Virus record (IMG/VR): IMGVR_UViG_3300034061_002643
Span: 1 to 25,421 of that record
Length of the DNA: 25,421 nucleotides
Origin: a virus
Strand: one strand, 5' to 3'
In this document: positions 1,349 to 20,902 of the stretch, piece after piece
How positions within the stretch are numbered: position 1 is the first letter of the stretch
How the letters are laid out: each line of letters starts with the position of its first letter
Made by a program: the position numbers and the translations under genes
The notes under the pieces: generated by a model
What the model saw: only the letters and a program-made list of their open reading frames with translations
Database searches by the model: none
What the model was told of the DNA's origin: nothing

Positions 1349-1368
1349 AATTATCCTTTATTATAACT

Positions 1369-1442: not shown

Positions 1443-1452
1443 AAAAATTGTT

Positions 1453-1527: not shown

Positions 1528-1610
1528 AAAATTTCTTTCATCACTTTCACATTTGATATTCACACAAACATTGAACCAACCTGACCATCAGTTTTGGATA
1601 CTTAAAATTA

Positions 1611-1696: not shown

Positions 1697-1702
1697 AATA
1701 TT

Positions 1703-1777
1703 TGGCTCCCCGGGCAGGACTCGAACCTACAACATCCTGGTTAACAGCCAAGCGCTCTACCATTGAGCTACCGAGGA
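1703..1777 (-). tRNA. tRNA-Asn(GTT)
   Basis: Acceptor TCCTCGG pairs with CCGGGGA. The D stem is GCTC/GAGC, the anticodon arm is CTTGG-CTGTTAA-CCAGG (anticodon GTT), and the T arm is GTAGG-TTCGAGT-CCTGC. Discriminator G and CCA are encoded. Confidence 0.95.
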
Positions 1778-5113: not shown

Positions 5114-5329
5114 ATGATTCTCGGTTGGGTTATTACAAAGACTCATTCCTCTGGCGTAACAGAAGTTTACGCCAGAGATTATAAAGAATCATGTTTTGGA
5201 TATTTTACGCCGAAGATTTCTGAATCTTATATCTTTCGAAATCGTTCGGCTGCTGAGTTAGAATTTAAGAATTATATAACTATTGTTTCGGAATCATTTG
5301 AACTGGTTCCGGTAGAAGCTTATATCTAA
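5114..5329 (+). CDS. Small hypothetical protein, coupled to the upstream gene
   Basis: A 71-residue protein starting MILGWVITKTHSSGVTEVYA. Its ATG directly follows the TAG of the upstream gene, with GGAG seven bases before, so translation is probably coupled. Its stop overlaps by four bases the stop of the convergent minus-strand glycosyltransferase gene. There is therefore no room for a separate terminator between the two opposing operons. No family recognised. Confidence 0.7.
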   Translation: MILGWVITKTHSSGVTEVYARDYKESCFGYFTPKISESYIFRNRSAAELEFKNYITIVSESFELVPVEAYI

Positions 5330-6234
5330 CTCAAGAAATTAACCCAACCTAGGATGTGTTTTTCCCAATCATAGTTCTCTCTTGCGAACTCTTGAATGTC
5401 GAGGCATTTTTTATTATATGCTTCTGGATTCTTTTGATAATATTCAATAGATTCTTTCAGAGCAGAACAATATTGATCCTCTTCAGGATAACCCATAGGA
5501 AGAACTACACCACCACCTTTAGGTCCATAATCTTCGAAATATCCAACTGGTGTTGATAAGACTAATCTTCCTGCTGCAGCTGCTTCCATAGAAGGCAATC
5601 CAGCAGATTCTTCAATAGAAGACACTGCCAATGCATCGATTGAGTTATAATAACCTGGCATACACATCCAGTTATAGAAATTATGTTCCACTAATTTAAC
5701 TTGTGGAATTTCTGTTGCAGTCTGTTTAACTAGATGACCACGTTTAATCTCTACATCGAAGAAATTCTTAGTCTCTTTCGCCCCACCATATCCTAACTTC
5801 TCAAGTTTTTCCGAAGGTTTCCTATAGAAGGAGTCGAAATGAATTCCAAAAGGAATTACATCAGGAATTCTTTCGACTCCAAATTCTGCCGCTTTATTCT
5901 TCAATACATTAGAAACTACACCAAATTTTTTAATTTGATTGTAGAAGAGATTACCGAAATCTCTTCTAGCAAGAAGCATATCCCACTGTCCATGAGCAAC
6001 TGTTGCTAATTTTTCAGGTGGAATTCCTAGTCTGTTCAGATGAACAATCGCTTCCGGATTAGTAACGAATAGATCGTAGGAGTCGTTTAATAAACGAATT
6101 TCATCAGGAGTATAGTGTTGTGTCCAATCAAGCAGATTGGCAATAATTCCATACTTGTATAACTCTTTCTCTAATCCTCTGTGGATTGCAGCAAATGCCC
6201 ATCTAGATTGTGTGTAGAAAATAACTTTCTTCAT
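5326..6234 (-). CDS. GT4-like glycosyltransferase
   Basis: This 302-residue protein looks like a GT-B fold, family 4 glycosyltransferase. The C-terminal half has the typical nucleotide-sugar motif as SSIEESAGLPSMEAAAAG (about residues 208-225), with the E-x7-E type pair, followed by a conserved PVG turn. The N-terminal half begins VIFYTQSRWAFAAIHRGLEK, a first beta strand and helix suited to acceptor binding. GT4 enzymes are usually retaining and use NDP-sugars; donor and acceptor are not predictable here. It is the last gene of the long minus-strand glycan operon and starts directly after the stop of the upstream gene. Confidence 0.8.
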   Translation of the reverse strand: MKKVIFYTQSRWAFAAIHRGLEKELYKYGIIANLLDWTQHYTPDEIRLLNDSYDLFVTNPEAIVHLNRLGIPPEKLATVAHGQWDMLLARRDFGNLFYNQIKKFGVVSNVLKNKAAEFGVERIPDVIPFGIHFDSFYRKPSEKLEKLGYGGAKETKNFFDVEIKRGHLVKQTATEIPQVKLVEHNFYNWMCMPGYYNSIDALAVSSIEESAGLPSMEAAAAGRLVLSTPVGYFEDYGPKGGGVVLPMGYPEEDQYCSALKESIEYYQKNPEAYNKKCLDIQEFARENYDWEKHILGWVNFLS

Positions 6235-6972
6235 TTATGAAGCAACCTTATCACCTAATAACATTTTGAATCCATTATTATAAGCATATTTGAAATATTT
6301 CGCCATATGAGGAATTCCACCATTTCCAGCTGTAGCTACTGCGTCGCCACCATATTCCCATCCTTTCAATGATCCCCACATTTCTCTATCTGATAATGGA
6401 TGTGGCGGAACCCAAGTCTTGTATTCAGAATACTTCTGAAGCATCCAAGAGAAATGCATATCTTCACCAACTGAGAATTCGTGATTAATAGGAGGCAATT
6501 CTCTACAAAAATGAGTGATCATATCTCTATGGAAGAACCAAGCGTGACCACCATAATCAACCATTTCTGCTTTTTCGTTGGGGTTATCCCAACCAATACG
6601 TTTCTCATATCCAAAATTGGAATTATTGATAATTACACCAATAGTTGTGTGAAGTCCAGGATGATTCTTCTGAGTCTCTAAACAATTCTCGAACCACTTC
6701 TTACCTGGAATAGTATCATCATCGAAAATACAAACCCAATTTGTTCTAGCATTCAAAGCATAATAGAATCTAGACCATACTCCAAAATTTGTGTTTGAAA
6801 TAGAAGAAACACATTTATTAATATATGTATTATCGTATTGAACTCCTGGCATCGAATTCTGCCAATACATAATATGCTTCGGCTGAATTGTTGATGTTGT
6901 TACAGCATCAAATTGTTCTTTTAAATTTTCAGGCCGTCTATATCCATTTAGCACCACAGTTATATCATTCAT
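6235..6972 (-). CDS. Glycosyltransferase, GT-A fold (GT2-like)
   Basis: A 245-residue protein with an N-terminal strand VVLNGYRRPENLKEQ and a DDD metal/nucleotide-binding motif (CIFDDDTIPGKKWF, aspartates 84-86). This is the classic arrangement of GT-A glycosyltransferases that use an NDP-sugar and a divalent ion. A second acidic site (VGEDMHFSWML, about residue 168 onward) would fit the catalytic base region. It follows the GT-D gene by four bases and is read in the same operon. The exact family within GT-A is uncertain. Confidence 0.75.
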   Translation of the reverse strand: MNDITVVLNGYRRPENLKEQFDAVTTSTIQPKHIMYWQNSMPGVQYDNTYINKCVSSISNTNFGVWSRFYYALNARTNWVCIFDDDTIPGKKWFENCLETQKNHPGLHTTIGVIINNSNFGYEKRIGWDNPNEKAEMVDYGGHAWFFHRDMITHFCRELPPINHEFSVGEDMHFSWMLQKYSEYKTWVPPHPLSDREMWGSLKGWEYGGDAVATAGNGGIPHMAKYFKYAYNNGFKMLLGDKVAS

Positions 6973-6976
6973 TTTA

Positions 6977-7687
6977 TTAAGAACCCCATGTACAAGTTAA
7001 TTTTGAGTGAAAAGAATCTGGTTGATAGTAACCTCTAATATTTATATCTGAACCCAACCAAGGATGTAATGTTGAACCAATATCAAGATATGTATTATTT
7101 TGATTGGTTTCCCATAGACTTTGAGATAATATCTTACCCAAAGGACCACAAGCAAATAAGAAGATCTTATTACTTGATCGCATATTTTTAATAAAATCTA
7201 TAACAGCCAAATCATTTACCCAAGCATTATAACCAACACCAATAAATGTGCAAGGAAATGGAAGATTGTCTACTTGTGATTTACTATTAGCAATCAATAC
7301 AATATCTTTCTTCTTGAATTCAGGTATAAAATTATCTACGAAAAATTTATAATTGGAATTTACGAAGATATTAGCAAAAGTTAAATTATCTTCATGTTGA
7401 CCGCTCACATCTTTCATATTTTGAAAATTCGCTTGTCCTTGACAACATGGACAAACTATTCCGACATAATAATTTGGATCTCTGTATGTAAATGATTTAT
7501 GTAAAAGCGATCTTGCAATTTCATATTGTGGCTCAGGACCATTAGTCATCCATTCCCCATAACCAGATGCAATGGTCTCTTTTCTTAGTGCAATCATTTC
7601 ACCGTCACCGAATCTGGCTAACGCAAAATGTTCACCGGAATTAATTTTATTTAGAAATTTTTCTATTTCATGATTAAAGTATTTCAT
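6977..7687 (-). CDS. GT-D fold glycosyltransferase (DUF1792-like)
   Basis: The N-terminal motif ALARFGDGEMIALR (residues 22-35) matches the signature of the GT-D fold (DUF1792) glycosyltransferases, where the D-x-E pair (D28, E30) binds metal and nucleotide-sugar. The length, 236 residues, is in the usual range. Central strands (KKDIVLIANS, KIFLFACGPLG) fit the Rossmann-like core. In the streptococcal member this fold extends a protein-linked glycan, so a role in glycan extension is reasonable here. The start overlaps the upstream GT2 gene by four bases (ATGA), indicating coupled translation. Confidence 0.75.
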   Translation of the reverse strand: MKYFNHEIEKFLNKINSGEHFALARFGDGEMIALRKETIASGYGEWMTNGPEPQYEIARSLLHKSFTYRDPNYYVGIVCPCCQGQANFQNMKDVSGQHEDNLTFANIFVNSNYKFFVDNFIPEFKKKDIVLIANSKSQVDNLPFPCTFIGVGYNAWVNDLAVIDFIKNMRSSNKIFLFACGPLGKILSQSLWETNQNNTYLDIGSTLHPWLGSDINIRGYYQPDSFHSKLTCTWGS

Positions 7688-8325
7688 ATATGGATTTTAT
7701 CTTGATTATTATTCCACCAATTTGTTTCATCTGAAATTATTTGTGGTAAGTTGTATTTATTGATTACCTCAGAATTACCTGATGTGATAGATATAGTATT
7801 GGAAACTGCTGAACCTCTTACAACATATAATCCGAATCTCTTCAGATTTATTAGGAGAAAAGTGTCACCCCACATTATTTTTAGTTGTTCCGGTATATGT
7901 TTGTATTTATGTTTATGTACAAACATCATACATCCAAAAGCAAATGGCCAGTCTTGAATCTGTTCTATTCTAGGTTCACCTTCATTATTGTAAATATCTA
8001 TACCAATCAATCCTACGGATAATAACAAATCTTCGTTAATTAAATTGAAAATAGATTTATCGAATGTAATATCATCATTAAGTAAACATATTGAGTTATT
8101 TTTAGATATATCAACTCCAAGATTCCAAGAAGGATTGACGAAGATATTTTGATGTTTATTGATAACAGTTATCTTGCAATTATTCAAAATATCCCATTTC
8201 GGGGTGTTAGTGGAATCATTGTTTATGATGATAATTTCATCTATCTGATCGACAGAAATCAGATCAAATAATAATGTTTGAGTTGTTTCACATTTCCAGA
8301 GAGTTGGTATAATTACAGTTATCAT
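7684..8325 (-). CDS. GT2-family glycosyltransferase, short
   Basis: A 213-residue GT-A protein. It opens with the typical GT2 strand MITVIIPTLWKCETTQTLL, continues with EIIIINNDS and has the metal-binding LLNDDITFD (D84-D85) after SWNLGVD. These are the family-2 hallmarks. It is shorter than many GT2 enzymes and appears to hold the catalytic domain alone, with no membrane segments, so it is cytoplasmic. It is coupled to the GT-D gene by a four-base overlap and starts four bases after the upstream gene. Confidence 0.8.
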   Translation of the reverse strand: MITVIIPTLWKCETTQTLLFDLISVDQIDEIIIINNDSTNTPKWDILNNCKITVINKHQNIFVNPSWNLGVDISKNNSICLLNDDITFDKSIFNLINEDLLLSVGLIGIDIYNNEGEPRIEQIQDWPFAFGCMMFVHKHKYKHIPEQLKIMWGDTFLLINLKRFGLYVVRGSAVSNTISITSGNSEVINKYNLPQIISDETNWWNNNQDKIHI

Positions 8326-8329: not shown

Positions 8330-8944
8330 TTATCTCGTATTTCTATCTAGTTTGACGTATTCGTTATCGTGTGATAGTGCTTCAACATCATATATGAAAT
8401 GTATATTCTCTTCTCCGATTTTTGGAGCCAACCTAGAATATGTTGGATGTAGATCTGGACAATCTAATCTGTGTGGTTTTTCATACACATCTTGAACAGA
8501 TTCTATTAGAGGAAGAATATACTTTTTAGGGAATACACTAAAATATTGTGGATCTGCAGTATATCTATGATTATCCCACCATCCCTTTTCTCTGAAGAAG
8601 AAATTGAATTTTTCTGGATCTATATTATAATTGCTAATCGAGTCATTGAATAATATATCAAATCTTGTAGAAACAATCAGATCTATATCTTCTTCTATCA
8701 TCGATTCTAAAGATTTCTTATAAGTTGTTCTTAAATCAGAATTAGAATATTGGATTAATTGATGTTTCTTGGGTTTATATTTATCAATTAGTTCTTCTTG
8801 TGTTTCATTGTGATAAGTTGTTATATAAATATTCGGATTCTCAAAAGTATATATTAAATTCTTATTGATATTTTCGTATCCTCTTCGCCAATCCCGCCCT
8901 CTATCACCATATGATATTCCACACAAATTAATAGCAACACGCAT
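8330..8944 (-). CDS. Putative glycosyltransferase-like protein, paralogue of upstream gene
   Basis: I prefer the ATG at 8944 (MRVAINLCGISYGDRG), one base after the upstream stop; an ATG at 8962 overlapping that gene is also possible. The protein of about 204 residues shares its layout with the upstream neighbour: a first strand RVAINL, a middle YKP, and a motif DLIVSTRFDILF (R94, D96). This resembles uncharacterised families found among capsule and virion glycosylation genes. A glycosyltransferase role is inferred from motif and context, not from a clear family match. Confidence 0.6.
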   Translation of the reverse strand: MRVAINLCGISYGDRGRDWRRGYENINKNLIYTFENPNIYITTYHNETQEELIDKYKPKKHQLIQYSNSDLRTTYKKSLESMIEEDIDLIVSTRFDILFNDSISNYNIDPEKFNFFFREKGWWDNHRYTADPQYFSVFPKKYILPLIESVQDVYEKPHRLDCPDLHPTYSRLAPKIGEENIHFIYDVEALSHDNEYVKLDRNTR

Positions 8945-8945
8945 G

Positions 8946-9731
8946 TTAGTAAATATTGACATATCTTCTCAATTCCTCTTCAGTAAAACCATATTGTATT
9001 ATGTCAGAAATTTTCAATTTATTAGAAGCGATCATTGAAGTGTGTATATATCTTATCGGAGCCTGGTGTTCACCAGCAATAATATTATCATTTCTTATCG
9101 GAACTCTGATAATTTCTTGTATGTATTTAGGGAATAATTTGTGTTCTAATGGAGGGTTATTGGTTGAGATAGAATCCCATGCATCTTTAAATAATAGCAT
9201 ATTTTCATAATTCATTATGAAATGGAAATCGCCTCGATAATCTTGATAATTGTTTAGTGTTATGCAATTAACATCATATTCAGAAAGAATAACATTTTTC
9301 CATATTAGAATATCTGGTCGATAAAGGATAACGAGATCGTAACTAATTCCTTGAGTCTTAACCCATTCGTCTATCAATTCACAACCTAGCTTTATTGATA
9401 ACGAATGTGATGCGATGGCAAAGGAATTGTGATTGACTCTAGATTGTTCTAATTTAGATATTATGATTTCTTTGTATAAATTGTTATCTTCGAACTTATA
9501 TGCAACTGGTTTGTATAAACTTGTTAAATTTTCTTGTATGTCTGGATTCCATGAATGTATAAAGAAATCGAATTTATAGTCTGAATTCGGTTCTATGAAA
9601 TGTTTGACAATAGAATTATATGCTGCGACATAATTAATGTATTCGCCTTCTCTATATAATTGTCCAGGTAAATCGAATTTACCTGTGACTTTAGATACAG
9701 CACCTTTAATTAGAAAAGCTACTCGTTTCAT
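8946..9731 (-). CDS. Putative glycosyltransferase-like protein
   Basis: A 261-residue protein beginning MKRVAFLIKGAVSKVTGKF, with FDFFIHSWNPD near residue 56 and YDLVILYRPDILIW (R138, D140) in the middle. The last motif and the general plan match the next gene downstream, so the two are distant paralogues. The HSW and RxD motifs are of the kind seen in uncharacterised polysaccharide-cluster transferases. The start overlaps the cupin gene by four bases. Assignment rests mostly on context. Confidence 0.55.
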   Translation of the reverse strand: MKRVAFLIKGAVSKVTGKFDLPGQLYREGEYINYVAAYNSIVKHFIEPNSDYKFDFFIHSWNPDIQENLTSLYKPVAYKFEDNNLYKEIIISKLEQSRVNHNSFAIASHSLSIKLGCELIDEWVKTQGISYDLVILYRPDILIWKNVILSEYDVNCITLNNYQDYRGDFHFIMNYENMLLFKDAWDSISTNNPPLEHKLFPKYIQEIIRVPIRNDNIIAGEHQAPIRYIHTSMIASNKLKISDIIQYGFTEEELRRYVNIY

Positions 9732-10048
9732 ACCAAATATTTATCTCCAGGAGCACTCGGAACCTTAATACAAAGTATAGTACAATCTTCAACAAATATT
9801 GGTTCAGAAATTTCATTTGGTTGAATTATGAATATATTTCCTGAATTTAAAGTTCTATCTGCTATAATCATTTTACCTGAAATTAGAATATTATATTCCG
9901 TAGCAATTTTATGATAATGCGCTGGCCAGTATTCGTCTTTCTTGTGTGTGAGTATACCAATTTCAAAGCCTTTTGTTCTAATAATATTAGGTTCAAAATC
10001 ACCAACAACCCAACCACGAAAAAACTCAGATAAGTGTTTTATAATCAT
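9728..10048 (-). CDS. Small cupin-domain protein
   Basis: A 106-residue single cupin. The first motif appears as PAHYHKIATEYNILISG (H44, H46, E51, G58) and the second part as the strand pair IFIIQPNEISEP. The N-terminal segment RGWVVGDFEPNI is shared by small cupins often found beside sugar nucleotidyltransferases in surface-glycan clusters. Such cupins can be sugar isomerases or epimerases, or metal-dependent binding proteins; the third metal-ligand histidine is not obvious. It overlaps both neighbours by four bases, so it is made together with the nucleotidyltransferase upstream. Confidence 0.75.
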   Translation of the reverse strand: MIIKHLSEFFRGWVVGDFEPNIIRTKGFEIGILTHKKDEYWPAHYHKIATEYNILISGKMIIADRTLNSGNIFIIQPNEISEPIFVEDCTILCIKVPSAPGDKYLV

Positions 10049-10758
10049 AAGTTCCGTCTAATAAGATACTTTTCAAGATCTTCGGGAATACCTACAGCAT
10101 TATGCTGCTCATTTGGTATGTGATGAATACCAATCTCGTATCCTTTAGAAATTAGATAATTATATGAAGGACCAATATAAAATTCAGAATTATATCTTTC
10201 TCCATTCGAGATCATTTGTTCTGCACTCTCAACAAAATATCTACCACGTTTCCAATAATGAATTCCATTCAAGCTAATGTTGCTTATAACTTGTTTTTCT
10301 TTAACCTCAACAACACGCCCTTTAGTGTTTATTTTGGCATAACTATTTTTGTTAGAATTTTCATAATATGTCACTATAGTCCCATCATATAACTTACAAG
10401 TATTGAGAAAAGTTTTTCCATCCCAATTCATAATTTGATCGCAATTAGTAATAAGCAATTCAGTTTCGTTATCAATTAATTCTTTGGCTAGTAGTGCAGA
10501 ACAAGCCGGACCTTCTGTGGTGTAATCAATATCAATTATTCTGCAATCCGGTTTGATTTTTCTTAAAATTTTGTCTATGGCATATTCTTCAATATGCCAT
10601 TTTTGGACCACGAATATATAGTCGCCTTCTAAATCTAATGATTCGATTACATATTCAATAAGAGGTCTGTTATTTATTTTTATTAGAGGTTTAGGTAATG
10701 TATATTCTGTATTGTTGAATCTGGAACCTCTTCCAGCCATAGGAATAAGAATATGCAT
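10045..10758 (-). CDS. Sugar-phosphate nucleotidyltransferase (NTP_transferase fold)
   Basis: The protein (237 residues) starts with the signature loop MAGRGSRF (residues 7-14) followed by LPKPLIKI (PKPL 22-25), which bind the NTP and the sugar-phosphate. A later NCDQIM supplies the metal-binding aspartate. This is the nucleotidyltransferase superfamily of GlmU, RmlA and LicC; the 237-residue length and lack of an acyltransferase repeat put it with single-domain enzymes. It should activate a phosphorylated sugar or alcohol with NTP, releasing pyrophosphate. It sits between the methyltransferase and the cupin, so its substrate may come from the RLP pathway upstream. Confidence 0.85.
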   Translation of the reverse strand: MHILIPMAGRGSRFNNTEYTLPKPLIKINNRPLIEYVIESLDLEGDYIFVVQKWHIEEYAIDKILRKIKPDCRIIDIDYTTEGPACSALLAKELIDNETELLITNCDQIMNWDGKTFLNTCKLYDGTIVTYYENSNKNSYAKINTKGRVVEVKEKQVISNISLNGIHYWKRGRYFVESAEQMISNGERYNSEFYIGPSYNYLISKGYEIGIHHIPNEQHNAVGIPEDLEKYLIRRNL

Positions 10759-10760: not shown

Positions 10761-11399
10761 TTAGATTCTGTAAGCAATACTCAATCCATAATCGTCGTCG
10801 TGTTCAAAATATTTTTCTACTCTATACATACTTTCGTCTATTGCAGGTAGAAATACAACTGGACCAGGATGTGAATTTGTATCGTGGAAAATAACAATAC
10901 CATCTTCCGATAGCATGTCGGTATACAACCAATCATTGATTACCATATTAACCGAATGCCAACCATCGATTAACAAGATAGAAATTTTATCCATTCCAAT
11001 TTCTTCGGCATATTTACGAATTGTGGTTTGATTCGCCGAATTCTCACGAATAGTATACACTCTCTTCTCTTCATTATTCAAATAAGACTTATCATCTAAA
11101 TCAATACCTAGATATGGAATATTATCTGGTTTATTTGTCAATAACGCATTAGTGAAAGAACCTAGACCGTTTCTAGATACTCCTATTTCGATAATACCGT
11201 GCGTCATGTAATCTTTACACACCTTATCTACTAGATCATATGAGTTTTTGGTAATTTCTACATTATGTCCAGCAGTCCATGTAAAATTCCAATCATCATC
11301 GTTACTGTATTGAGACATCTGGGGTTTGAATTTCAATCCCTTAATATCTGTATTATGTTCTATGATGTTAATATAATGATTGTTGATAGTTATATTCAT
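10761..11399 (-). CDS. Class I SAM-dependent methyltransferase
   Basis: The order of motifs is that of a Rossmann-fold methyltransferase: IIEIGVSRNGLGS (residues 69-81, SAM glycine loop), YLGIDLD (96-102, acidic residue binding the ribose), ILLIDGWHS (141-149) and GIVIFHDTNSHPGP (167-180). The last two motifs resemble the family related to cephalosporin hydroxylase and to capsule methyltransferases. It probably O-methylates a sugar or a phosphate-linked group. The start overlaps the stop of the RuBisCO-like gene by four bases (ATGA), so the two proteins are translationally coupled, and the next gene starts two bases after its stop. Confidence 0.75.
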   Translation of the reverse strand: MNITINNHYINIIEHNTDIKGLKFKPQMSQYSNDDDWNFTWTAGHNVEITKNSYDLVDKVCKDYMTHGIIEIGVSRNGLGSFTNALLTNKPDNIPYLGIDLDDKSYLNNEEKRVYTIRENSANQTTIRKYAEEIGMDKISILLIDGWHSVNMVINDWLYTDMLSEDGIVIFHDTNSHPGPVVFLPAIDESMYRVEKYFEHDDDYGLSIAYRI

Positions 11400-12586
11400 C
11401 TAATAATTCCCCATTTCTCAATTGCAATTCTATATTCTTCGCCTTCATTTCCATCAATTGATTGTCTCATTGCCAATGCCCCAGAAAGTGTTCCTCCAGG
11501 ATGACCATGAACTGCTCCACCAGCATTTGCTAGATAATCAAATCCAACTAGATTAGTTATTTTTTGAATTAATCCTGGATGCATTCCACAACTCAATGCT
11601 GGAGCTGTATTACCAGCTCTGAGAATATCTAAACACTCTAGAATCTCGTCTGGGTCGTCGTTACTATATCCACCAACCATACCAGTTTGGATAGTATCAA
11701 CACCCATCAAAGTTGCTAATTTACAGATAACTGGCCAAGAAATACTGAAACGATGTGAAACGTCCGTGAATATTTTGGCACCACTACTCTGTAAATGTAA
11801 GAATAGGGGTAAGTTAGATTTTCTTATACTGTTATATACACCTAAACCACTATAAACATTGATGTGTACACCATTACCACCATTCTGATAAACTGAATTA
11901 ATTCTATCCATAACAACATGTGGATCACAATTAATTGTGTGACAGAAAATAACTTTTCTTGATTGTTTCGATAGATAATTTGCAATAATATCTACACGTC
12001 TCTCAAGTGGAGCACATAGAGGATTACTCATGATTTCATCTTCTTTAATAAAATCTACACCACCATCAACCATTTGCTTAACCATTTCTAATAGAACTTC
12101 TGGTGTAATTCCAATTTTAGGTTTAACAATACTACCGAATAATGGTTTATTGTATTGGTTTGTAAATTTTCTGATACCAGATAACCCAAATCTCGGACCA
12201 AGAAAAGATCCGGTGACAGAATCTGGTAGATGCAGGCGAACTAATCTACATCTTTGAATAATATTGATGTCTAAATGTCCACCCATTAATTGACATAATA
12301 GATGCGAAATACCATCAGTATCCCAATCAGTATTAATTATTGGAAATGCAATCTTTACGATACCTGAAGTACCATTAAGTAGAGTTGTTTCATCACCTAA
12401 AATCATACAAGAATGATTTTCGAACAGGTAATCAGTTTCCCATTCGTTCCTGACATTAGGATTACCTACACTCTGTCCTATTGCGATATTCCATGCTGCT
12501 TCTCTTAGATTAGTGGAAGATTCAACTAGATATTCAGCAATAATATATTTTTGATCGTCATCTAATTGTTCAACGAAAAGATTCAT
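11396..12586 (-). CDS. RuBisCO-like protein (form IV type)
   Basis: A 396-residue protein with the RuBisCO large-subunit architecture. Seen here: VESSTN (E22, aligning with spinach E60), GPRFGLSGIRK (130-140), IVKPKIGI (K155 and K157, as K175/K177), GGVDFIKEDE (K181, D183, E184, as the carbamylated K201 with D203 and E204), FLHLQS (H264, near H294), LSCGMHPG (S332, as S379) and AGGAVHGHPGG (355-365, phosphate loop). The loop-6 lysine K334 is absent (TGMVGGYSND, 301-310), the residue matching N123 appears replaced, and the HIHSG histidine is TIQTG. Metal binding and enolisation should be possible, CO2 fixation not. Known RLPs act as DK-MTP-1-phosphate enolase or on other keto-sugar phosphates. 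The substrate here is unknown; context points to glycan precursor synthesis. The start overlaps the GDPD-like gene by 17 bases. Confidence 0.9.
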   Translation of the reverse strand: MNLFVEQLDDDQKYIIAEYLVESSTNLREAAWNIAIGQSVGNPNVRNEWETDYLFENHSCMILGDETTLLNGTSGIVKIAFPIINTDWDTDGISHLLCQLMGGHLDINIIQRCRLVRLHLPDSVTGSFLGPRFGLSGIRKFTNQYNKPLFGSIVKPKIGITPEVLLEMVKQMVDGGVDFIKEDEIMSNPLCAPLERRVDIIANYLSKQSRKVIFCHTINCDPHVVMDRINSVYQNGGNGVHINVYSGLGVYNSIRKSNLPLFLHLQSSGAKIFTDVSHRFSISWPVICKLATLMGVDTIQTGMVGGYSNDDPDEILECLDILRAGNTAPALSCGMHPGLIQKITNLVGFDYLANAGGAVHGHPGGTLSGALAMRQSIDGNEGEEYRIAIEKWGIIR

Positions 12587-13046
12587 TTAGAATCACCTCA
12601 TACTTAGTAATATAATCTGAACAAATTCCAAAACAAGTTGACAATTTATTTGCATTGGATTCGTCGAAATTTAACTCAGGAAGAACATGAATTGAGTTAT
12701 CGATTATATTTATACTAGGATAAGCCCAAATAACTCCATTACTCGTTAATGTAGCAATATCAGAATCGTGTGTGAAATAAATTAGATCAGAATAACATTT
12801 ATTGAATAATGATAAACTCACTGTATCTTTACAGTGAGTCCACAATTTATCTTTTCTAGCCAATAACCAATCGATGTCAATCTTATGATGAGGATAATCG
12901 TGGCCCAGATATATTTCTGAATTATAGATTCTAACATCTATTTCAACATCATAACCGATAGAAATCGCATGATCAATATATCCTGGATCATTTTCGTAAC
13001 ATCTATCAGGTCCTGATAGATTACCACGATGAGATATAAATCTCAT
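12570..13046 (-). CDS. Short GDPD-type phosphodiesterase
   Basis: The N-terminus ISHRGNLSG...YEND (H6, R7, E18, N19) followed by DVEIDVRIY (E35, D37) and YLGHDY (H49) is the active-site pattern of glycerophosphodiester phosphodiesterases: the general acid/base histidines and the metal-binding acids. At 158 residues it is shorter than usual GDPDs (about 240 or more), so part of the TIM barrel is missing or minimal. It may cleave or transfer a glycerophosphate or other phosphodiester linked to a sugar. It follows the GT4 gene by four bases and overlaps the RuBisCO-like gene by 17 bases, so it belongs to the same step-sequence. Confidence 0.75.
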   Translation of the reverse strand: MRFISHRGNLSGPDRCYENDPGYIDHAISIGYDVEIDVRIYNSEIYLGHDYPHHKIDIDWLLARKDKLWTHCKDTVSLSLFNKCYSDLIYFTHDSDIATLTSNGVIWAYPSINIIDNSIHVLPELNFDESNANKLSTCFGICSDYITKYEVILNESFR

Positions 13047-13050: not shown

Positions 13051-14214
13051 TTACGCTCTCTTAATCCCTGCTGGATAATAACGATTCAACCATTCTAATT
13101 CATCCTGGTGATCGTCTTCCGCATACCAACCTTTTCCAGTATATACGTTATGAACCATGGTGAAATAATGTTCGTACATTCTAGCAACACGATCTAAAGA
13201 AAAGTTAGCCATTGCCCAATCTCTACAATCTTGTGGATTGATCTTGTCAATATTCTTAGCCGCCCAAGAGAATTCTGAGAATGAACGACAACGATAACCA
13301 GTTACTCCGTGTAAATTATTCTCTGCGTGTGAACCCCAATCTGTTGTGATAATAGGACAACCTGCAAAAAGAGCTTCGATAGATGCTCCACCAAAAGGTT
13401 CGTTGAACATAGAAGGAAGCCAGAATCCCTTCGCCTTAGAGAGTACCTTCTTTCTATCTTCTGCATTAAGGTATCCGATAACTTCGATCTGACCAGGAAT
13501 CTCTTTATATCCATGCTCCTCAAGAGAACCTTGTCCTGCGATCTTCAATTTCAACCCAAGTTTTTCACAGACTTGATAGGCAACATCAATACCCTTTCCA
13601 GGATAGATTCTACCCATGAATAGAAGATAATCATCTTTCTCTTTTGAAAATTCAAATTCATCTGGATCGAAATAATTAGGAATCACAGCATGATACCAGG
13701 ATTCTTTGCACTGACCAACAGCTTCATGACCACCAACAGCAGAACGAATGGCATATGATTCATAGATTCGCCAAGGAGAGAATTGGCCTGTAGCATATCC
13801 AATACCAGGCTCTACGATAATCATATCGTCTACAAACGCATCACATACTGGTTTATTACCCCATCCCCAGAAAGGTAGAATGAAATCGTTTGGTTGTTTT
13901 CTCTTTTGAATTTCTCTAATAGCGTTCTTATAGAAAGTTTGATAAGCATGGTCATTCATATCAAACTTAAAGAAATTCTTGCGCCAATCAAAATCACCAT
14001 ATGCTTTCTTAAAATCGTCATTGGTAACAACCGTAACATGTTCCGTACACTCTAGTTCGGAATCTTCGTGACCATAATGAATAACTTCGTGTCCACGTGA
14101 GACCATCATTTTCCCGAATTTGCGTGTCTTTTGTCCGTACGCACAAGCCGAAAATTCTGCATTAGTTACTACATGTGGTGGTGGTAGAATATGAAATCTA
14201 AACTTTTGACTCAT
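13051..14214 (-). CDS. GT4-family glycosyltransferase, first gene of the glycan operon
   Basis: This 387-residue protein has two Rossmann-like halves. The C-terminal half shows the GT4 markers: DYLLFMGRIYPGKG (about 191-204, start of the NDP-sugar domain) and LPSMFNEPFGGASIEALFAG (about 266-285, with the E-F-G-G-x-x-x-E nucleotide-sugar pattern), then CPIITTDWGS. It starts at the ATG at 14214 with a good AGGAGT ribosome binding site. A consensus promoter lies 17 bases before that site, so this gene opens the twelve-gene run. It is a probable retaining transferase using an NDP-sugar; donor unknown. Confidence 0.85.
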   Translation of the reverse strand: MSQKFRFHILPPPHVVTNAEFSACAYGQKTRKFGKMMVSRGHEVIHYGHEDSELECTEHVTVVTNDDFKKAYGDFDWRKNFFKFDMNDHAYQTFYKNAIREIQKRKQPNDFILPFWGWGNKPVCDAFVDDMIIVEPGIGYATGQFSPWRIYESYAIRSAVGGHEAVGQCKESWYHAVIPNYFDPDEFEFSKEKDDYLLFMGRIYPGKGIDVAYQVCEKLGLKLKIAGQGSLEEHGYKEIPGQIEVIGYLNAEDRKKVLSKAKGFWLPSMFNEPFGGASIEALFAGCPIITTDWGSHAENNLHGVTGYRCRSFSEFSWAAKNIDKINPQDCRDWAMANFSLDRVARMYEHYFTMVHNVYTGKGWYAEDDHQDELEWLNRYYPAGIKRA

Positions 14215-14390: not shown

Positions 14391-14963
14391 TTATACTCCA
14401 AATGCGATCTTATATAAATCAATTTTAGTTGTAGATCCTGCTGCGGCGGATGCAATTAATCTTATATTTCCACCAGTGATATTGGTTGTATAAGTTACTA
14501 GAGGATTTGCTGAAGTATGTACTCTAGAGTATTCGGATATATTAGCTGTTGTTCCATTATGGATCAATAGAATTTCAGAACATTGGAAATTTGTGAGGTA
14601 TGAAACTTGTAATACATATTTCACTGTTCTGAATGTAGATATAGGCGATTCATCGATAACAGTTTCTGTAACACCAATATTTGTGATTCTTTTACCAGAA
14701 ATTAATGCTGGATCAATTGAAAGTTGTCCAGTCATTGTTAGTGTATTAGTTTCTTTGACCCATGTTAATCCTGTTGCCCCAACTACAGATGTATTATCTA
14801 GATACAACAATTCACGATTAGATCCAGAAAATGTTCCTGTCGCTCCAGTAAAACCAGTCGCACCTATTCCTGTAGAACCTTGATTACCTATTGTGCCCTG
14901 AGTTCCTATTGATGCAACTTTTACAGTCGTTGATGATGGTATTGTAACTGTTATATTTGACAT
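14391..14963 (-). CDS. Collagen-like virion protein, possible fibre
   Basis: This 190-residue protein has Gly-X-Y triplets (GTQGTIGNQGSTGIGATGFT, residues 21-40 and a little beyond) near the N-terminus, followed by a beta-rich C-terminal domain (about 80-190) with many Ser, Thr and Ile. Phage fibre and head-decoration proteins often have this collagen-like plus globular layout, and the partial gene at the right end of the window has similar GATG repeats. It is the last gene of the gp13-gp14-gp15 late run, one base after the Ig-like gene. Location on the virion is inferred; it could be a target of the glycosyltransferases next door. Confidence 0.7.
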   Translation of the reverse strand: MSNITVTIPSSTTVKVASIGTQGTIGNQGSTGIGATGFTGATGTFSGSNRELLYLDNTSVVGATGLTWVKETNTLTMTGQLSIDPALISGKRITNIGVTETVIDESPISTFRTVKYVLQVSYLTNFQCSEILLIHNGTTANISEYSRVHTSANPLVTYTTNITGGNIRLIASAAAGSTTKIDLYKIAFGV

Positions 14964-15312: not shown

Positions 15313-16338
15313 TTAATATTCCGTAATAGTTGTATTTATTGTATAAACATCATCTCTATCTGCTGTAGATGGATTGACGGAAACTGTTGTTGTTACTAAT
15401 TTTTGTGTAGTATCTAATTCGTAAAAATTAGTAACAGCATTTTTAATAATCTTAGCATCAGAAATTGGTGGATAAATCCAAGAGTTTGCAACAAATGTTA
15501 ACGTCCATGTTAAAATTCTATCATCTTCTACTGATCCTTCATATTCATCTGATTGTGAAACTGATGTTAAAGTAATTTGCACATCCCTCTTCATATCAAT
15601 AGATGGTATATCGTTCAGAGTAATGGTATAAAAAGGAGTGAAATATGGAAGAATCTGTTCTATAATTTGTAGACCATCATCAATATATTTAACAAATAAA
15701 TTAACAGTAAATTCAAAATTATAAGGAACTGGATTATACTGTCCAATATATGTTGTTTTTAACGTAGAAATACCGGAACCTGGTGCGATTAAATCAATTG
15801 CTGTTCCGGCTTCAGCTAAAGATTTAGAAGAAGCGAGTTTAATTGTATTGTTAGTCGTCTTAATTGTGTAATAAGTTCCACCATCAAAAAATCCTGTTGC
15901 TCCAATTGAATTTCCAGATCCTTTAATATAAGTTACTGATTGACCAGTTCTTAAATTATGTGACGGGATAGTTATGGTATTTTCACTTACATTAACGGCA
16001 CTTGAAGCATTAAACGTCAAATCATTTTGTGGAACAAATATATTCTTTCCAATAGTTTGTTGTTTTCTTGTTGAATCATATGACATAGAAGTTAACTCAA
16101 ACGATAATCTTGGAAGAATAACTTTTACATCAACATAATTATCTCTTCTCTGAACATCTTGTTGCTGTAACATCGTGATGGTTTTATCTGCAGATGCGTA
16201 TGCAAGTGGAACTTTAATGGTTTTTTCTATCGATCCATCTTGATTATATCTTAAGACTCTTATATTATTAAATAGAGAACCAAAAGCTGCAGTCAGATTT
16301 CTAATTGTAGAGAAATAAAAGTTTGATGAATTTAACAT
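15313..16338 (-). CDS. 15: T4 gp15-like tail completion / sheath terminator, with inserted domain
   Basis: The N-terminal part (FYFSTIRNLTAAFGSLFNNI, VPLAYASADK, VILPRLSFEL) and the C-terminal part (QYNPVPYNFEFTVNLFVKYI, QIIEQILPYFTPF, WIYPP) match T4 gp15. That protein caps the tail at the head-proximal end and binds the neck proteins. T4 gp15 is 272 residues; this one is 341. The extra length lies mostly at residues about 108-197, a Thr/Ser/Gly-rich beta segment (HNLRTGQSVTY, GGTYYTIKTTNNTIKLASS) inserted just before QYNP. It would project from the connector. Its order after gp13 and gp14 is as in T4. Confidence 0.85.
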   Translation of the reverse strand: MLNSSNFYFSTIRNLTAAFGSLFNNIRVLRYNQDGSIEKTIKVPLAYASADKTITMLQQQDVQRRDNYVDVKVILPRLSFELTSMSYDSTRKQQTIGKNIFVPQNDLTFNASSAVNVSENTITIPSHNLRTGQSVTYIKGSGNSIGATGFFDGGTYYTIKTTNNTIKLASSKSLAEAGTAIDLIAPGSGISTLKTTYIGQYNPVPYNFEFTVNLFVKYIDDGLQIIEQILPYFTPFYTITLNDIPSIDMKRDVQITLTSVSQSDEYEGSVEDDRILTWTLTFVANSWIYPPISDAKIIKNAVTNFYELDTTQKLVTTTVSVNPSTADRDDVYTINTTITEY

Positions 16339-16361
16339 TTAATACACATATTCCTTTATAA

Positions 16362-17000
16362 TTAATTATTGATATTAGAAAAAGGATTTGACTCTGTGAA
16401 GTCTATTATAATATCGGATTTAGATTGTATTTTATCGTTCTTAGCAAATGGATCACCAATTCCTGTAGCACCATCATTATTATAAGTTACATTAACTTCA
16501 TCTGCTTCAGTACCAGTGTCAATAGTTTCATTAGAATATTTAAATACTTCGCAAGTTAGAATAAAATATTGTCTCGCCCCAAGAGGAAATAGAGGATTCT
16601 TATCATCAACATATTTAATTTCGAAAAGGGATCTTGCTGTAGGATACATTATAAGATCACCTTCGACTGGAAGAACCTTTCCTACAATAGATTCAAATCT
16701 TTCTCTAGAAACAATTAATCTTAATCTATCACCTAGAGTGAATCCAAATTTAGAAATTAAAGCTCCGTCCCCAAGAAATGCTTCATAATTCTCTATGTAC
16801 ATTTCTATTACAAAATTTCTCTCGAATTTAGATATATAATCTTCACGATATAATTCATCAACATTAACAATAGTTCTTGGTAAATAAACAAAATCACATC
16901 CTGCAATTTGTATAGATTCATTTACCAAAACTTGGAGAAGATTCTGTTCTTCTGTAGAACCTATACCACGACCGGATTGAAAAAATTTATTAGTTGGCAT
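16362..17000 (-). CDS. 14: T4 gp14-like neck protein
   Basis: Segments such as LLQVLVNESIQIAGCDFVYLPR, EGDLIMYPTARSLFEIKYVD and PLFPLGARQYFILTCEVFKY match T4 gp14 by order and spacing; in T4 the matching parts are VLVAESIQMRG, EGDLIYFPMDNSLFEI and QLGQNAIRKI. It is 212 residues, shorter than T4 gp14 (256), mainly through shorter ends. gp14 joins gp13 in the neck that links the head connector to the tail. It begins three bases after the gp13 stop. Confidence 0.8.
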   Translation of the reverse strand: MPTNKFFQSGRGIGSTEEQNLLQVLVNESIQIAGCDFVYLPRTIVNVDELYREDYISKFERNFVIEMYIENYEAFLGDGALISKFGFTLGDRLRLIVSRERFESIVGKVLPVEGDLIMYPTARSLFEIKYVDDKNPLFPLGARQYFILTCEVFKYSNETIDTGTEADEVNVTYNNDGATGIGDPFAKNDKIQSKSDIIIDFTESNPFSNINN

Positions 17001-17003
17001 GAT

Positions 17004-17768
17004 TTATCCAATAAATAGATCCAACGGTAATTGTAAATCTTTAGTGAGTCTTGTTTCTAATTTTTCTATTTCAGTTATAGCTTCTGAATATATTGCATCA
17101 CCATTAATTGTTATACCGCCTGGCAAATTCATATTTCCAAATTTCTTAAGATTCTCGCCCCATTGTCTTTTAATTAGAGCTGTAGCATATTCCTTAAGAA
17201 ATTCGTCAGCCCAAATATCGTTAAAAGTATTGATATCTAATTTCTTGTAAATTTTCAAAACAATATTGGATGTTTTCTCTTTTAATAAAGAGAGCGGTTC
17301 GTTGAATCTAATTCTATTTGTTTTTCTATTAAAGTTAAAAGAATTTAATGGTGATAATGACATCTGCATAGTAGCAAGATACGACTTCATAGAATCTAAA
17401 TAAGCTAAATTATTTCCTATAATATTTGTTGTATTATAGAAATCGTTCATATAGAACTGATATTGTGCATTAAATAGATCGCCACTACCAACTCCTGTAG
17501 AAACGTCATTACCGACAGGAAGTGCAGATATTACAGAAAATACTTTTTCATCTAGAGTAATATATCCATTAGTTACATCCGTATTAGTTATAGGAACAAT
17601 AAGATAATCTTCTTCAACGCCATCAAAATGATAATCAAAATATTTCGTTATGGCATCATCGATTCTATCATCAACTTGTTCTTCTGCAACATTTATTTCT
17701 ATTACAGGAAAACCTAGTCTTCTTAAACAGTAATCGGAAAATTGTTCTCTAGTTGTTGGCGTTGCCAT
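17004..17768 (-). CDS. 13: T4 gp13-like neck protein
   Basis: A 254-residue protein beginning MATPTTREQFSDYCLRRLGF, followed by VAEEQVDDRIDDAITKYFDYH, a pattern typical of gp13 neck proteins in T4-like phages. Later parts (LDSMKSYLATMQMSL, RIRFNEPLSLL, WADEFLKEYATALIKRQWGE) fit the family as well. In the virion it forms the ring that closes the filled head. It starts with an AGGAGT ribosome binding site just after a T4-type late promoter and is the first gene of the late run gp13-gp14-gp15-fibre. Confidence 0.85.
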   Translation of the reverse strand: MATPTTREQFSDYCLRRLGFPVIEINVAEEQVDDRIDDAITKYFDYHFDGVEEDYLIVPITNTDVTNGYITLDEKVFSVISALPVGNDVSTGVGSGDLFNAQYQFYMNDFYNTTNIIGNNLAYLDSMKSYLATMQMSLSPLNSFNFNRKTNRIRFNEPLSLLKEKTSNIVLKIYKKLDINTFNDIWADEFLKEYATALIKRQWGENLKKFGNMNLPGGITINGDAIYSEAITEIEKLETRLTKDLQLPLDLFIG

Positions 17769-18831: not shown

Positions 18832-19848
18832 ATGAGTATATTGGTTGATTCAAAATATCTTTCGTTGATATCTCCTAAATTAGACTTATTTAAGAAGAAG
18901 TCTGAAGTCTTATGGAATTTTAGATGTCCATATTGTATGGATTCGAAGAAGAGAGAATCAAAGGCGAGAGGTTATGTCTACAGGAAACACAACGACCTCT
19001 TTTTTAAGTGTCATAATTGTGTGAAAGGCACAACGTTCTCTAATTTCCTTAAATTCTTAGACCCTGTTTTACATAAACAATATATATTCGAGAGATTCAC
19101 ATCAGGAGATACTCATCCAAATCATAATTACAAGAAACCAATCCTAGTTTCTTCTGATGCAAAAAACAAATTTCAGAAAAAAATCATAAATTATGATATC
19201 GGTTTGGAATCTATAAAGGATCTTCAAGACGGACATTACGCAAAAGAATATATTAGATCAAGAGAAATACCATCTGAGCATTGGAATAAATTGTTTTTTA
19301 CAAACGACTTTAAACAATATGTCGAATCTATTAATAAAGAAAAATCTAAGAACTTAAAACCAAAAGATCCAAGGATTGTGATTCCTTTCTTTGATAAAAC
19401 TGGTAAATTGATAGCAGTTCAAGGTCGTGCATTGGAAGACAGTATCGCAAGATATATTACAATTAAATTACACGAAGATAATGATAAAATATATGGTTTA
19501 GAACGTATAAATACAAATACAACTTTATGGATATTTGAAGGTCCAATTGATTCGTTATTTGTGAAAAATGCTCTGGCTACAGCTGGAGCTGAATTATCAA
19601 AATTAATAAAAGATTATCCTAAAGCAATATTCGTTTTTGATAATGAACCATCAAATAAACAGATTATTCAAAATATGAATTTTGTAATAGATTCTGGATG
19701 TAAAATTGTAATTTGGAAAAAAGAAAACAAATGTAAAGATGTCAATGATATGGTTCTTGCAGGTTTAGATATTGATTCAGAATTAACAGAATCGTCTTAT
19801 TCGGGGTTAGAAGCATTATTTAAATTTAATATTTGGAAGAAGGTGTGA
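18832..19848 (+). CDS. 61: T4 gp61-like DNA primase
   Basis: This 338-residue protein matches T4 gp61, the primase that works with helicase gp41 at the fork. The zinc-binding domain has C32, C35, C60 and C63 (RCPYCMDSKK, KCHNCVKG). The TOPRIM-like catalytic part includes RIVIPFFDKTGKLIAVQGRA, WIFEGPIDSLFVKNALATAG, FVFDNEPSNK and CKDVNDMV, which follow the T4 protein in order. Length is near the T4 value (342). It begins the nucleotide/replication operon and, with TATAAT six bases before its ATG, looks leaderless. The next gene starts one base after its stop. Confidence 0.9.
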   Translation: MSILVDSKYLSLISPKLDLFKKKSEVLWNFRCPYCMDSKKRESKARGYVYRKHNDLFFKCHNCVKGTTFSNFLKFLDPVLHKQYIFERFTSGDTHPNHNYKKPILVSSDAKNKFQKKIINYDIGLESIKDLQDGHYAKEYIRSREIPSEHWNKLFFTNDFKQYVESINKEKSKNLKPKDPRIVIPFFDKTGKLIAVQGRALEDSIARYITIKLHEDNDKIYGLERINTNTTLWIFEGPIDSLFVKNALATAGAELSKLIKDYPKAIFVFDNEPSNKQIIQNMNFVIDSGCKIVIWKKENKCKDVNDMVLAGLDIDSELTESSYSGLEALFKFNIWKKV

Positions 19849-19849
19849 C

Positions 19850-20218
19850 ATGTATACTTACAGTGCTAAGATTTTAAGAGTTATAGATGGCGATACAATT
19901 GAATCTGAAATTGATTTGGGGTTTGGAGTAAGTATTCGAAAGATTGTTAGATTGAATGGAATCGATACTCCAGAAAAAAATTCAAGGATCGTATCGGAAC
20001 GTGAATTGGCTGTAAAGGCGACAGCTAGAACTAAATATGCTTTAGAAAATAAAACAATAATTTTGAAAACGCAGTTAGATAAAGATGATAAATATGGGCG
20101 TGTCTTGGCTTATGTTTATGTGTCTGAGAAAGATGTTGAATCTAACCAATCGTTTAATATTAAGTTAATTCAAGAAGGATTAGCTTTTCCATATTCTGGA
20201 GGAAAGAAGAATGTATAA
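19850..20218 (+). CDS. Staphylococcal-nuclease-like (SNase) endonuclease
   Basis: A compact 122-residue SNase fold. It has the motifs VIDGDTIE (D13), VRLNGIDTPEKN (R34, D39, E42) and DKYGRVLAYV (R84). These match the catalytic Arg-Glu-Arg triad of staphylococcal nuclease, and D13 and D39 would bind Ca2+. There is no signal peptide, so it acts in the cell, perhaps on host DNA to feed the deoxynucleotide pool made by the genes downstream. The gene lies one base after gp61 and overlaps thyX by eight bases. Confidence 0.85.
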   Translation: MYTYSAKILRVIDGDTIESEIDLGFGVSIRKIVRLNGIDTPEKNSRIVSERELAVKATARTKYALENKTIILKTQLDKDDKYGRVLAYVYVSEKDVESNQSFNIKLIQEGLAFPYSGGKKNV

Positions 20219-20894
20219 GAAATATGAAGATATTCTTTCCGTTAAATTGATTTCCTACACACAACCAAATCCAGAAGAATTTTCACAAGGATTTATTGAT
20301 GATGGTATTCAAAATTTAATCTCTTATTGTGCCAGAGTTTCTAATCCCTCAAACCAAAACAATCTAGATACAGTCGATAAGCTACTTAATTATCTAATTA
20401 AGAATAAACATTGGTCTCCATTTGAGATGGTTGATGTTTGTCTTGAGATTACAAGCACCAGAGATATTGTACGTCAGATTCTAAGACATCGTTCTTTTTC
20501 ATTCCAGGAATTTTCACAAAGATATGCAGATCCAACAAAAGAATTAGATTTCTGTCTAAAGGAATGTAGACTTCAAGATACAAAGAATAGACAGAATTCA
20601 ATTCTAATTAATAATGATGAATTGGCTGAGATTTGGAAACAGTTACAAATACAAGTAATTGATATTGCTAAAGCTAATTATGAAAATGCAATTTCACAAG
20701 GTATTGCTAAGGAAGTAGCAAGAGTTATGCTACCGGAAGGTAATACAGTTTCAAGAATGTACATTAAAGGTTCTATTCGTTCCTGGATTCATTACATTGA
20801 AGTTCGTGATGGTAATGGTACACAGAAAGAACACCAATTAGTTGCACGTGCTTGTGCCGAAGCCATAAATAAAATTTTCCCTTATATTAAGTAG
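20211..20894 (+). CDS. thyX: FAD-dependent thymidylate synthase ThyX
   Basis: The signature ThyX motif is present as RHRSFSFQEFSQRY (residues 92-105). HWSPFEMVD (67-75) and the C-terminal MYIKGSIRSWIHYIEVRD with GTQKEHQLVA also fit the family. The enzyme makes dTMP from dUMP with FAD, NADPH and methylene-tetrahydrofolate; it replaces the unrelated ThyA found in T4. At 227 residues it is a normal length. A GGAGG ribosome binding site lies in the end of the nuclease gene, and the gene precedes nrdA by eight bases, so dTMP and dNDP synthesis are co-expressed. Confidence 0.95.
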   Translation: MYKKYEDILSVKLISYTQPNPEEFSQGFIDDGIQNLISYCARVSNPSNQNNLDTVDKLLNYLIKNKHWSPFEMVDVCLEITSTRDIVRQILRHRSFSFQEFSQRYADPTKELDFCLKECRLQDTKNRQNSILINNDELAEIWKQLQIQVIDIAKANYENAISQGIAKEVARVMLPEGNTVSRMYIKGSIRSWIHYIEVRDGNGTQKEHQLVARACAEAINKIFPYIK

Positions 20895-20902
20895 GAGTTT
20901 AG

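Follow-up and report, generated by a model that had tools for sequence, protein, structure and literature searches.

A conserved, phage-borne clade of RuBisCO-like proteins with its own gene neighbourhood and a likely role in sugar-phosphate chemistry

Where the role of a RuBisCO-like protein (RLP) is known, it mostly belongs to methionine salvage or to the catabolism of sugar acids, and RLPs with the metal site considered here enolise or isomerise phosphorylated keto compounds. The RLP studied in this work is encoded in a glycan operon of a T4-like phage, on a 25,421-nucleotide stretch of viral DNA (IMG/VR virus record IMGVR_UViG_3300034061_002643, positions 1 to 25,421), hereafter the window. 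The closest described systems are MtnW, the 2,3-diketo-5-methylthiopentyl-1-phosphate (DK-MTP-1-phosphate) enolase of clade IV-YkrW; OiaX, the 3-oxo-isoapionate-4-phosphate decarboxylase; form III RuBisCO; and the DeepYkr RLP of R. rubrum and R. palustris, an MTRu-1-phosphate (MTRu-1-P) 1,3-isomerase on whose product a cupin acts (PMC4958253 and PMC5893883, in the sections cited here). The cited portion of a review also names an RLP oxygenase of keto-pentitol bisphosphate and lists a clade IV-GOS (PMC10173188). The 2007 Global Ocean Sampling (GOS) survey, in its passages on RuBisCO, reports groups of 65 homologues that fall in with none of the known forms, and poor conservation of N123, K177, D198, F199, H327, and G404 across GOS sequences (PMC1821046). 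In the relevant excerpts of a study of landfill viruses and random IMG/VR viruses, viral rbcL is classed as CO2 fixation, and one rbcL placed in a tree clustered with "RbcL-like" proteins (PMC12607003). Among the listings and passages covered in searches of the open-access literature, no paper was found to describe a glycan operon, of phage or bacterium, that contains an RLP.

The gene in question is the following:

11396..12586, minus strand: RLP, 396 aa plus stop, full-length RuBisCO fold (open reading frame (ORF) list, Pfam, PDB, model, alignment, and tree)

A first reading of the window from its sequence alone (the sequence-only reading) had the coordinates and the length right; the strand had to be corrected, as the plus strand between these positions is riddled with stop codons in the ORF check. 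A ribosome-binding site (GAGGTG) lies 5' of the RLP start codon ATG, within the end of the preceding gene, which encodes a protein resembling glycerophosphodiester phosphodiesterases (GDPD-like). The full-length RuBisCO fold, also claimed earlier, is borne out by Pfam RuBisCO_large (E 2.8e-34), by PDB sequences at about 1e-33 (form III RuBisCO 2cwx, E 1.3e-33; MtnW 2oej, E 3.7e-33), and by an AlphaFold2 model (pLDDT 88.5), whose best solved match is MtnW 2oem (Z 42.6, rmsd 2.3, 367 residues aligned). The same model matches form III 2cwx with Z 41.2 and rmsd 2.5 over 381 residues, and Foldseek ranks form III RuBisCO 3a12 first. Membership of the RuBisCO superfamily is thus far beyond chance. 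With regard to described families, the protein matches six NCBIfam models, scoring far under the cut-off of each: 162.5 bits against 497.45 for form III (TIGR03326, the best-scoring model), 151.6 against 409 and 124 against 513.6 for MtnW (NF007095 and TIGR03332, respectively), and 139.4 against 700 for OiaX (NF042437). Membership of the MtnW or OiaX families was rejected on these scores. No PHROGs family matches the window RLP.

Alignment places K155, K157, K181, D183, E184, G356/G357, and G361-H362-P363 of the window RLP at RuBisCO sites, in agreement with the metal site, lysines, and GG..GHP loop read earlier from the sequence; K155 and K157 are taken here to be K175 and K177 of RuBisCO. 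The residue E22, which that reading had added to the active site, does not belong there: the RuBisCO E60 column is occupied by G37, and residue 22 is not one of the sites that the family keeps invariant or nearly so. Seven residues (K155, P156, K157, K181, E182, D183, and E184) are invariant in all 57 aligned family members. In contrast, six positions that are constant in 20/20 reference RuBisCO rows (E60, T65, N123, H294, R295, and K334, in spinach numbering) are changed. The family has Gly at the E60 site, Asn at the T65 site, Gly at the N123 site (G103 in the window), and Gln at the H294 site (Q266), each in 57/57 members; the R295 site holds Lys (31), Ser (25, including S267 of the window), or Arg (1), and the loop-6 K334 site Tyr in 56/56 (Y307). 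The loss of the loop-6 lysine and the change at N123, both noticed previously, are therefore family-wide, and the complete RuBisCO active-site set is absent (N123 kept in 0/57 rows, K334 in 0/56). Relative to form III RuBisCO, the window family shares the fold, K175, K177, K201, D203, and E204, and differs at these six positions. The window RLP would accordingly be form IV-type in the broad sense, as previously read, combining the superfamily fold with loss of the residues for carboxylation of ribulose bisphosphate (RuBP). The H327 site is Gln in 31/34 viral rows (Q300 in the window) and His in 3/34 viral and 22/22 genomic rows, so that the viral enzymes may depart in some details from the cellular ones.

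The family is characterized by a signature of its own, G37-Q38-S39-x-G41-N42-P43, conserved in 57/57 members together with Q266, as well as by Y307 and C333 (56/56, one row being truncated); further signature positions are D106-I107, H241, N243, S268-G269, M303, and S332-C333-G334. The ratio of nonsynonymous to synonymous substitution rates (dN/dS) ranges from 0.027 to 0.226 in 7 of 11 pairs, with synonymous sites saturated in the remaining 4. The RLP family is under purifying selection.

The viral metagenome search and the phylogeny suggested along with the sequence-only reading place the gene in a wider family. Scans for short peptide patterns, which make the locus counts lower bounds, recovered 56 RLP loci in viral contigs (54-100% identity) and, with the alignment as query, 23 loci in genomes of bacteria and archaea. 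The cellular carriers belong to Pelagibacteraceae, another alphaproteobacterium, Crocinitomicaceae, Patescibacteria, DPANN archaea, Azospirillum, Elusimicrobia, Verrucomicrobia, Sphingobacteriales, and Legionella, and include one named strain, Azospirillum oleiclasticum RWY-5-1-1 (locus L074). With a profile built from 34 viral sequences, all 23 genomic loci score at least 269 bits, and the next RuBisCO homologue 196. The alignment and tree were built with the window and 33 of the 56 viral loci, after exclusion of short, near-identical, and some other sequences; reference forms I, II, and III were labelled by motif and by place in the tree, the OiaX rows take their name from NCBIfam (four) or from the record (L138), and the MtnW rows theirs from NCBIfam (L150) and PDB (2oek). 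In the resulting tree of 94 rows, a single branch (support 100/99) sets the 57 members apart from the rows of forms I-III, OiaX, and MtnW. The MtnW rows adjoin the family (97/85) and do not enclose it, a join that involves only two MtnW rows and carries a long-branch warning. Thirty-one of the 34 viral sequences, the window included, form a viral clade (100/99); L042 and L043 group with a Patescibacteria member, and L044 stands apart.

In cellular genomes the family is sporadic. It was found in 2/197 Pelagibacterales genomes (both from the earlier scan), in 1/198 Bacteroidota and 1/82 Azospirillaceae genomes (in each case the genome at the centre of the search), and in 4/22 genomes of one Legionella genus, centre included; the remaining matches in these genome groups reach at most 131 bits, within the range of other RuBisCO relatives. 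A tblastn search of a 50,697-record phage collection detected no RLP at E 1e-5. Two loci deserve separate mention: on a 145-kb viral contig the RLP is broken by frame changes, through sequencing error or decay (L047:9990-11190), and in a Sphingobacteriales bin (L076) the neighbours (by eye, GroES-like, radical-SAM-like, and glycosyltransferase-like) look phage-like, so that this bin may hold a phage binned with a bacterium.

Relative to the open-access literature searched, the window family is a new RLP clade, unless it corresponds to the orphan group IV-GOS, an identity that is plausible. The unplaced GOS homologues, as far as the cited passages describe them, are marine, fall outside the forms then known, and conserve N123 weakly, and the window family has SAR11 members; on the same descriptive comparison, K177 is poorly conserved across GOS sequences, whereas it is invariant here.

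The RLP sits in a run of tightly packed, partly overlapping genes on the same strand. The glycan operon recognised by the sequence-only reading is supported by the Pfam families of its members, which in order of transcription are:

13051..14214, minus strand: GT4-type glycosyltransferase, head of the glycan operon (PF00534, E 1.4e-18; phrog_3408, E 4.4e-154)
12570..13046, minus strand: minimal GDPD-type phosphodiesterase, 158 aa (phrog_34507), overlapping the RLP start by 17 nt
11396..12586, minus strand: the RLP
10761..11399, minus strand: S-adenosylmethionine (SAM)-methyltransferase-like protein (Methyltransf_24, PF13578, E 1.1e-4, below cut-off), overlapping the RLP stop by 4 nt
10045..10758, minus strand: sugar-1-phosphate-type nucleotidyltransferase, 237 aa (PF12804, E 4.3e-8; PF00483, E 4.7e-7; phrog_3980, E 1.1e-60)
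9728..10048, minus strand: single-domain cupin, 106 aa (phrog_24762; HxH...E motif; no Pfam match for the window copy)
8946..9731, minus strand: operon gene of unassigned function (no Pfam match; phrog_13607, unknown function, E 2.2e-10)
8330..8962, minus strand: operon gene with no family match in Pfam or PHROGs
7684..8325, minus strand: GT2-type glycosyltransferase (PF00535, E 1.1e-5)
6977..7687, minus strand: GT-D-like protein (PF22882, E 3.2e-4, below cut-off)
6235..6972, minus strand: weak GT2-like protein (PF00535, E 0.0022, below cut-off)
5326..6234, minus strand: GT4-like protein, last of the run (PF13692, E 5.8e-5, below cut-off; phrog_18799, unknown function, E 5.6e-60; glycosyltransferase phrog_2170, E 2.5e-9)

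Three of these neighbours recur with the RLP, forming a module that the sequence-only reading had overlooked along with the bacterial carriers of the family. After removal of RLPs at least 95% alike, 38 viral and 21 genomic loci remained, of which 29 and 13, respectively, have at least 2.5 kb on both sides (well-flanked loci). Partners were counted as tblastn homologues within 4 kb of the RLP; the nucleotidyltransferase count takes any at E 1e-5, and ordinary sugar nucleotidyltransferases, for example one in L063, may be among those counted. On this basis a nucleotidyltransferase accompanies the RLP in 28/29 viral and 13/13 genomic well-flanked loci (35/38 and 19/21 of all loci), a cupin in 24/29 and 4/13, a GDPD-like gene in 21/29 and 10/13, and all three in 18/29 and 3/13. 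These figures replace gene-based ones, since ORF calling is crude on GC-rich contigs (viral: nucleotidyltransferase 27/29, GDPD-like 16/29, cupin 24/29; genomic: 12/13, 8/13, and 2/13). A methyltransferase relative is present within 4 kb of the RLP in 20/29 viral and 1/13 genomic well-flanked loci. As a control, 19 other RuBisCO-family loci with flanks of about 4 kb either side were examined: OiaX and OiaX-like loci, MtnW, forms I, II, and III, and four relatives that fit no class. None of the three partners was detected at any of them (0/19 for each). The order GDPD-like, RLP, cupin, nucleotidyltransferase is found in Azospirillum (L074) and Elusimicrobia (L075).

The partner proteins keep their characteristic residues. 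The HRG, EN, ExD, and HD motifs, which we take to be the catalytic motifs of GDPD, are present in 24/24 aligned GDPD-like members, and the model of the window protein (pLDDT 94.1) superimposes on GDPD 1o1z (Z 11.3, rmsd 3.2, 144 residues aligned) with a shortened barrel; the window protein has no Pfam match, and by motifs and modelled fold this partner would be a GDPD. G9, T81, G83, D107, E154, and K155 of the nucleotidyltransferase are conserved in 50/50 family rows, and the nearest solved relative of the L060 copy, 4evw, bears a generic name only. The cupin HxH...E motif is retained at H44 (32/32 rows), H46 (31/32), and E51 (32/32); of six cupin homologues compared with Pfam, three match Cupin_7 or Cupin_2 at E < 0.01 (one over the cut-off), one gives a marginal Cupin_3 match only, and two give none. 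One cupin and one GDPD-like protein, compared with PDB sequences, gave matches at chance level only. The scans of the wider surroundings covered 94 of 108 candidate same-strand neighbours and 57 of 191 flanking ORFs, with 25 families listed for each; among the 94 same-strand neighbours the 25 listed of 76 families include methyltransferases, epimerases, glycosyltransferases, and WavE. LicD is not among these 25, which is weak evidence of its absence; at the Legionella locus L078, LicD is encoded next to the RLP and nucleotidyltransferase genes, though on the other strand. In SAR11 loci L064-L069 nucleotidyltransferase-like genes flank the RLP on both sides, and the upstream copy of L068 matches no Pfam family and, by eye, does not start with the G-x-G-x-R motif usual for these proteins.

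Related nucleotidyltransferase and GDPD-like genes also occur in glycan operons of Synechococcus phages (S-CAM9, B23, S-SM2, DSL-LC03, and SynMITS9220M01). These differ from the window operon in having no RLP, and HAD phosphatase, phosphatase, or heptose-type genes are annotated in four of the five, B23 excepted. In five isolated Synechococcus phages (L154-L158), which offer a tractable laboratory system for the two partner genes, the nucleotidyltransferase matches part of a longer protein, an apparent fusion, near a GDPD-like gene and with no RLP.

We consider it probable that the window RLP is a Mg2+-dependent keto-sugar-phosphate enolase or isomerase whose product is nucleotide-activated for glycan assembly. 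Sugar-phosphate chemistry, which the sequence-only reading had proposed, would be consistent with the intact metal site and the conserved partners; beyond that fit we infer it. The carbamylation, the reaction, the order of the steps, the nucleotide used, and the final glycan are likewise all put forward as a proposal. K181 would be carbamylated and, with D183 and E184, hold Mg2+; the metal would polarise the keto group of a phosphorylated keto-sugar, and K155/K157 would serve as acid/base, so that the substrate is enolised and reprotonated elsewhere in a 1,3-type isomerisation. No CO2 or O2 would be added and RuBP would not be a substrate, as the loop-6 lysine, E60, N123, H294, and R295 sites are changed. 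By analogy with R. rubrum and R. palustris, the substrate may be a keto-sugar phosphate of the host. The small metal-type cupin, near the RLP in most phage loci, would act on the RLP product; the neighbouring nucleotidyltransferase would activate the phosphorylated sugar, the glycosyltransferases and methyltransferase of the operon would attach or modify it, and a phosphodiester of this pathway is probably what the GDPD-like protein acts on. The nearest biochemical precedent is the RLP-cupin pair of R. rubrum.

Several observations weigh against this proposal. The cupin parallel with R. rubrum appears to be functional only, and an obligatory cupin was dropped from the proposal because the gene is missing near 9/13 genomic and 5/29 viral well-flanked members. 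Loss of RuBisCO residues is incomplete, given that R295 is still Arg in one row of 57 and the H327 site still His in many. Glycan loci often contain nucleotidyltransferases, and the control loci were not picked as glycan loci; the contrast with them therefore indicates a family-specific link and does not prove one shared pathway. The well-flanked viral locus L043 has 0/3 partners within 4 kb. Cytidylyl specificity has no basis other than LicD, identified at L078 only. No sugar kinase is named among the 25 of 76 neighbour families listed, so a phosphorylated precursor would need a host source. Finally, the phage collection contains 16 Synechococcus phage records with nucleotidyltransferase and GDPD-like genes together and no RLP (all 16 GDPD-like records fall within the 19 with a nucleotidyltransferase match), which points to a role of their own for these two genes; the RLP may have joined them later to divert or supply a substrate.

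On a wider claim we are evenly divided: that the cassette of RLP, nucleotidyltransferase, GDPD-like protein, and often cupin is the first nucleotide-activated sugar synthesis to employ the RuBisCO superfamily, providing a rare sugar, keto- or branched, for the surface glycans of SAR11 and other bacteria, of DPANN archaea, and of many phages. If so, an orphan RLP clade known since 2007 would gain a function, and some viral "rbcL" genes tallied as carbon fixation would be glycan genes. A link between a conserved clade and nucleotide-sugar genes would extend the chemistry of the superfamily by a new branch, and the cassette of Azospirillum oleiclasticum RWY-5-1-1 provides a concrete, testable route to its function. 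The clade itself is real, conserved, phage-borne, and new, with its own gene cassette inside a known superfamily; the class of chemistry is likely.

Among other explanations, making or breaking of a carbon-carbon bond (OiaX-like decarboxylation or non-canonical carboxylation) for a branched or acidic glycan sugar is rather unlikely. The RuBisCO fold is capable of such chemistry, as OiaX-family RLPs are named decarboxylases by NCBIfam, and the window family shares with OiaX the superfamily and metal site and with real RuBisCO both K155 and K157. However, the OiaX score lies far under its cut-off, OiaX rows form a separate clade, and OiaX neighbours are sugar-acid catabolic genes. Furthermore, 15 rows of OiaX and other references keep K177 in 0/15 and K334 in 13/15, the reverse of the window family. 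The loop-6 lysine of RuBisCO stabilises the added CO2, whereas its site here is invariably Tyr, and the H294 and R295 sites are Gln (57/57) and Lys or Ser (56/57).

An enzyme of methionine salvage, either a MtnW-like DK-MTP-1-phosphate enolase or an MTRu-1-phosphate isomerase recycling sulfur or SAM for the phage, is an unlikely reading as well. MtnW shares with the family the fold, the metal site, the K175 equivalent, and the lost loop-6 lysine; it occupies the neighbouring branch and gives the top structure match by Z, and the MtnW row 2oek also has Gly at the E60 site and the GG-x-x-H-G-H-P loop. The RLP-cupin pair, in turn, parallels the MTA-isoprenoid shunt, and DeepYkr, likened here by description, combines RLP and cupin in one pathway with an enolisation/isomerisation of a ketose phosphate such as we propose. 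Nonetheless, the window family is a clade of its own with sub-cut-off MtnW scores, and the join to MtnW is the one flagged for long branches meeting. K157 is retained against Met in 2oek and N42 stands against Thr, with Q266, Y307, C333, and the N42-P43 signature as further differences. Its neighbours are glycan genes, with a nucleotidyltransferase as constant partner, and no methionine-salvage gene is named among those scanned (25 of 76 families listed in one scan).

The changes at several known substrate-contact sites could also suggest a RuBisCO scaffold that has lost catalysis and serves in binding or regulation. This reading is very unlikely and was rejected on the metal and lysine residues, identical in 57/57 members across viruses, bacteria, and archaea; dN/dS is low as well. 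A genuine RuBisCO that fixes CO2 and is carried for carbon metabolism, in line with the excerpted listing of viral rbcL for CO2 fixation in landfill and random IMG/VR viruses (PMC12607003) and with the form III model as best scorer, is extremely improbable: that score is under its cut-off, no phosphoribulokinase or small subunit is named among the neighbours seen (25 of 76 families listed in one scan), and the six changed active-site positions (R295 in 56/57) and the tree position led to its rejection. Automatic calling of viral rbcL as CO2 fixation can thus be wrong, and some viral "rbcL" genes reported for carbon fixation may be misread members of this family.

The T4-like phage context described by the sequence-only reading is upheld by family matches on both strands of the window:

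15313-17768, minus strand, upstream of the RLP: sheath stabilizer, head closure Hc2, and adaptor Ad2
18832-23934, other strand: nrdA, nrdB, and primase

Bacterial homologues of the RLP exist, which would allow for a contig chimeric between phage and bacterial DNA, a practically negligible prospect rejected on repeated synteny: the gene order recurs at 99-100% identity in L001, L002 (which ends at the nucleotidyltransferase), and L041, the RLP stands beside neck genes 50-57% identical to those of the window in L037 and L038, partial RLPs stand beside more diverged neck genes in L054, L055, and L056, most viral sequences form their own clade, and the 57 flanking proteins scanned at 14 further viral loci include phage replication and virion families.

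The window also carries nine consecutive tRNA genes (Tyr, Glu, Phe, Ala, Asp, Cys, Lys, Ser, and Asn; 414-1777, minus strand) and two collagen-like repeat proteins (GATGFTGATG-type, by eye; 14391-14963 and 24876-25421), one of them between the neck genes and the glycan operon. The nearest relative of its nrdA (20903-22681) is that of Alcaligenes phage vB_Af_QDWS535 (61%), with Pelagibacter phages at about 51-54% among the next best, whereas its neck protein is nearest to cyanophages (42%), which suggests a mosaic ancestry of the window phage.

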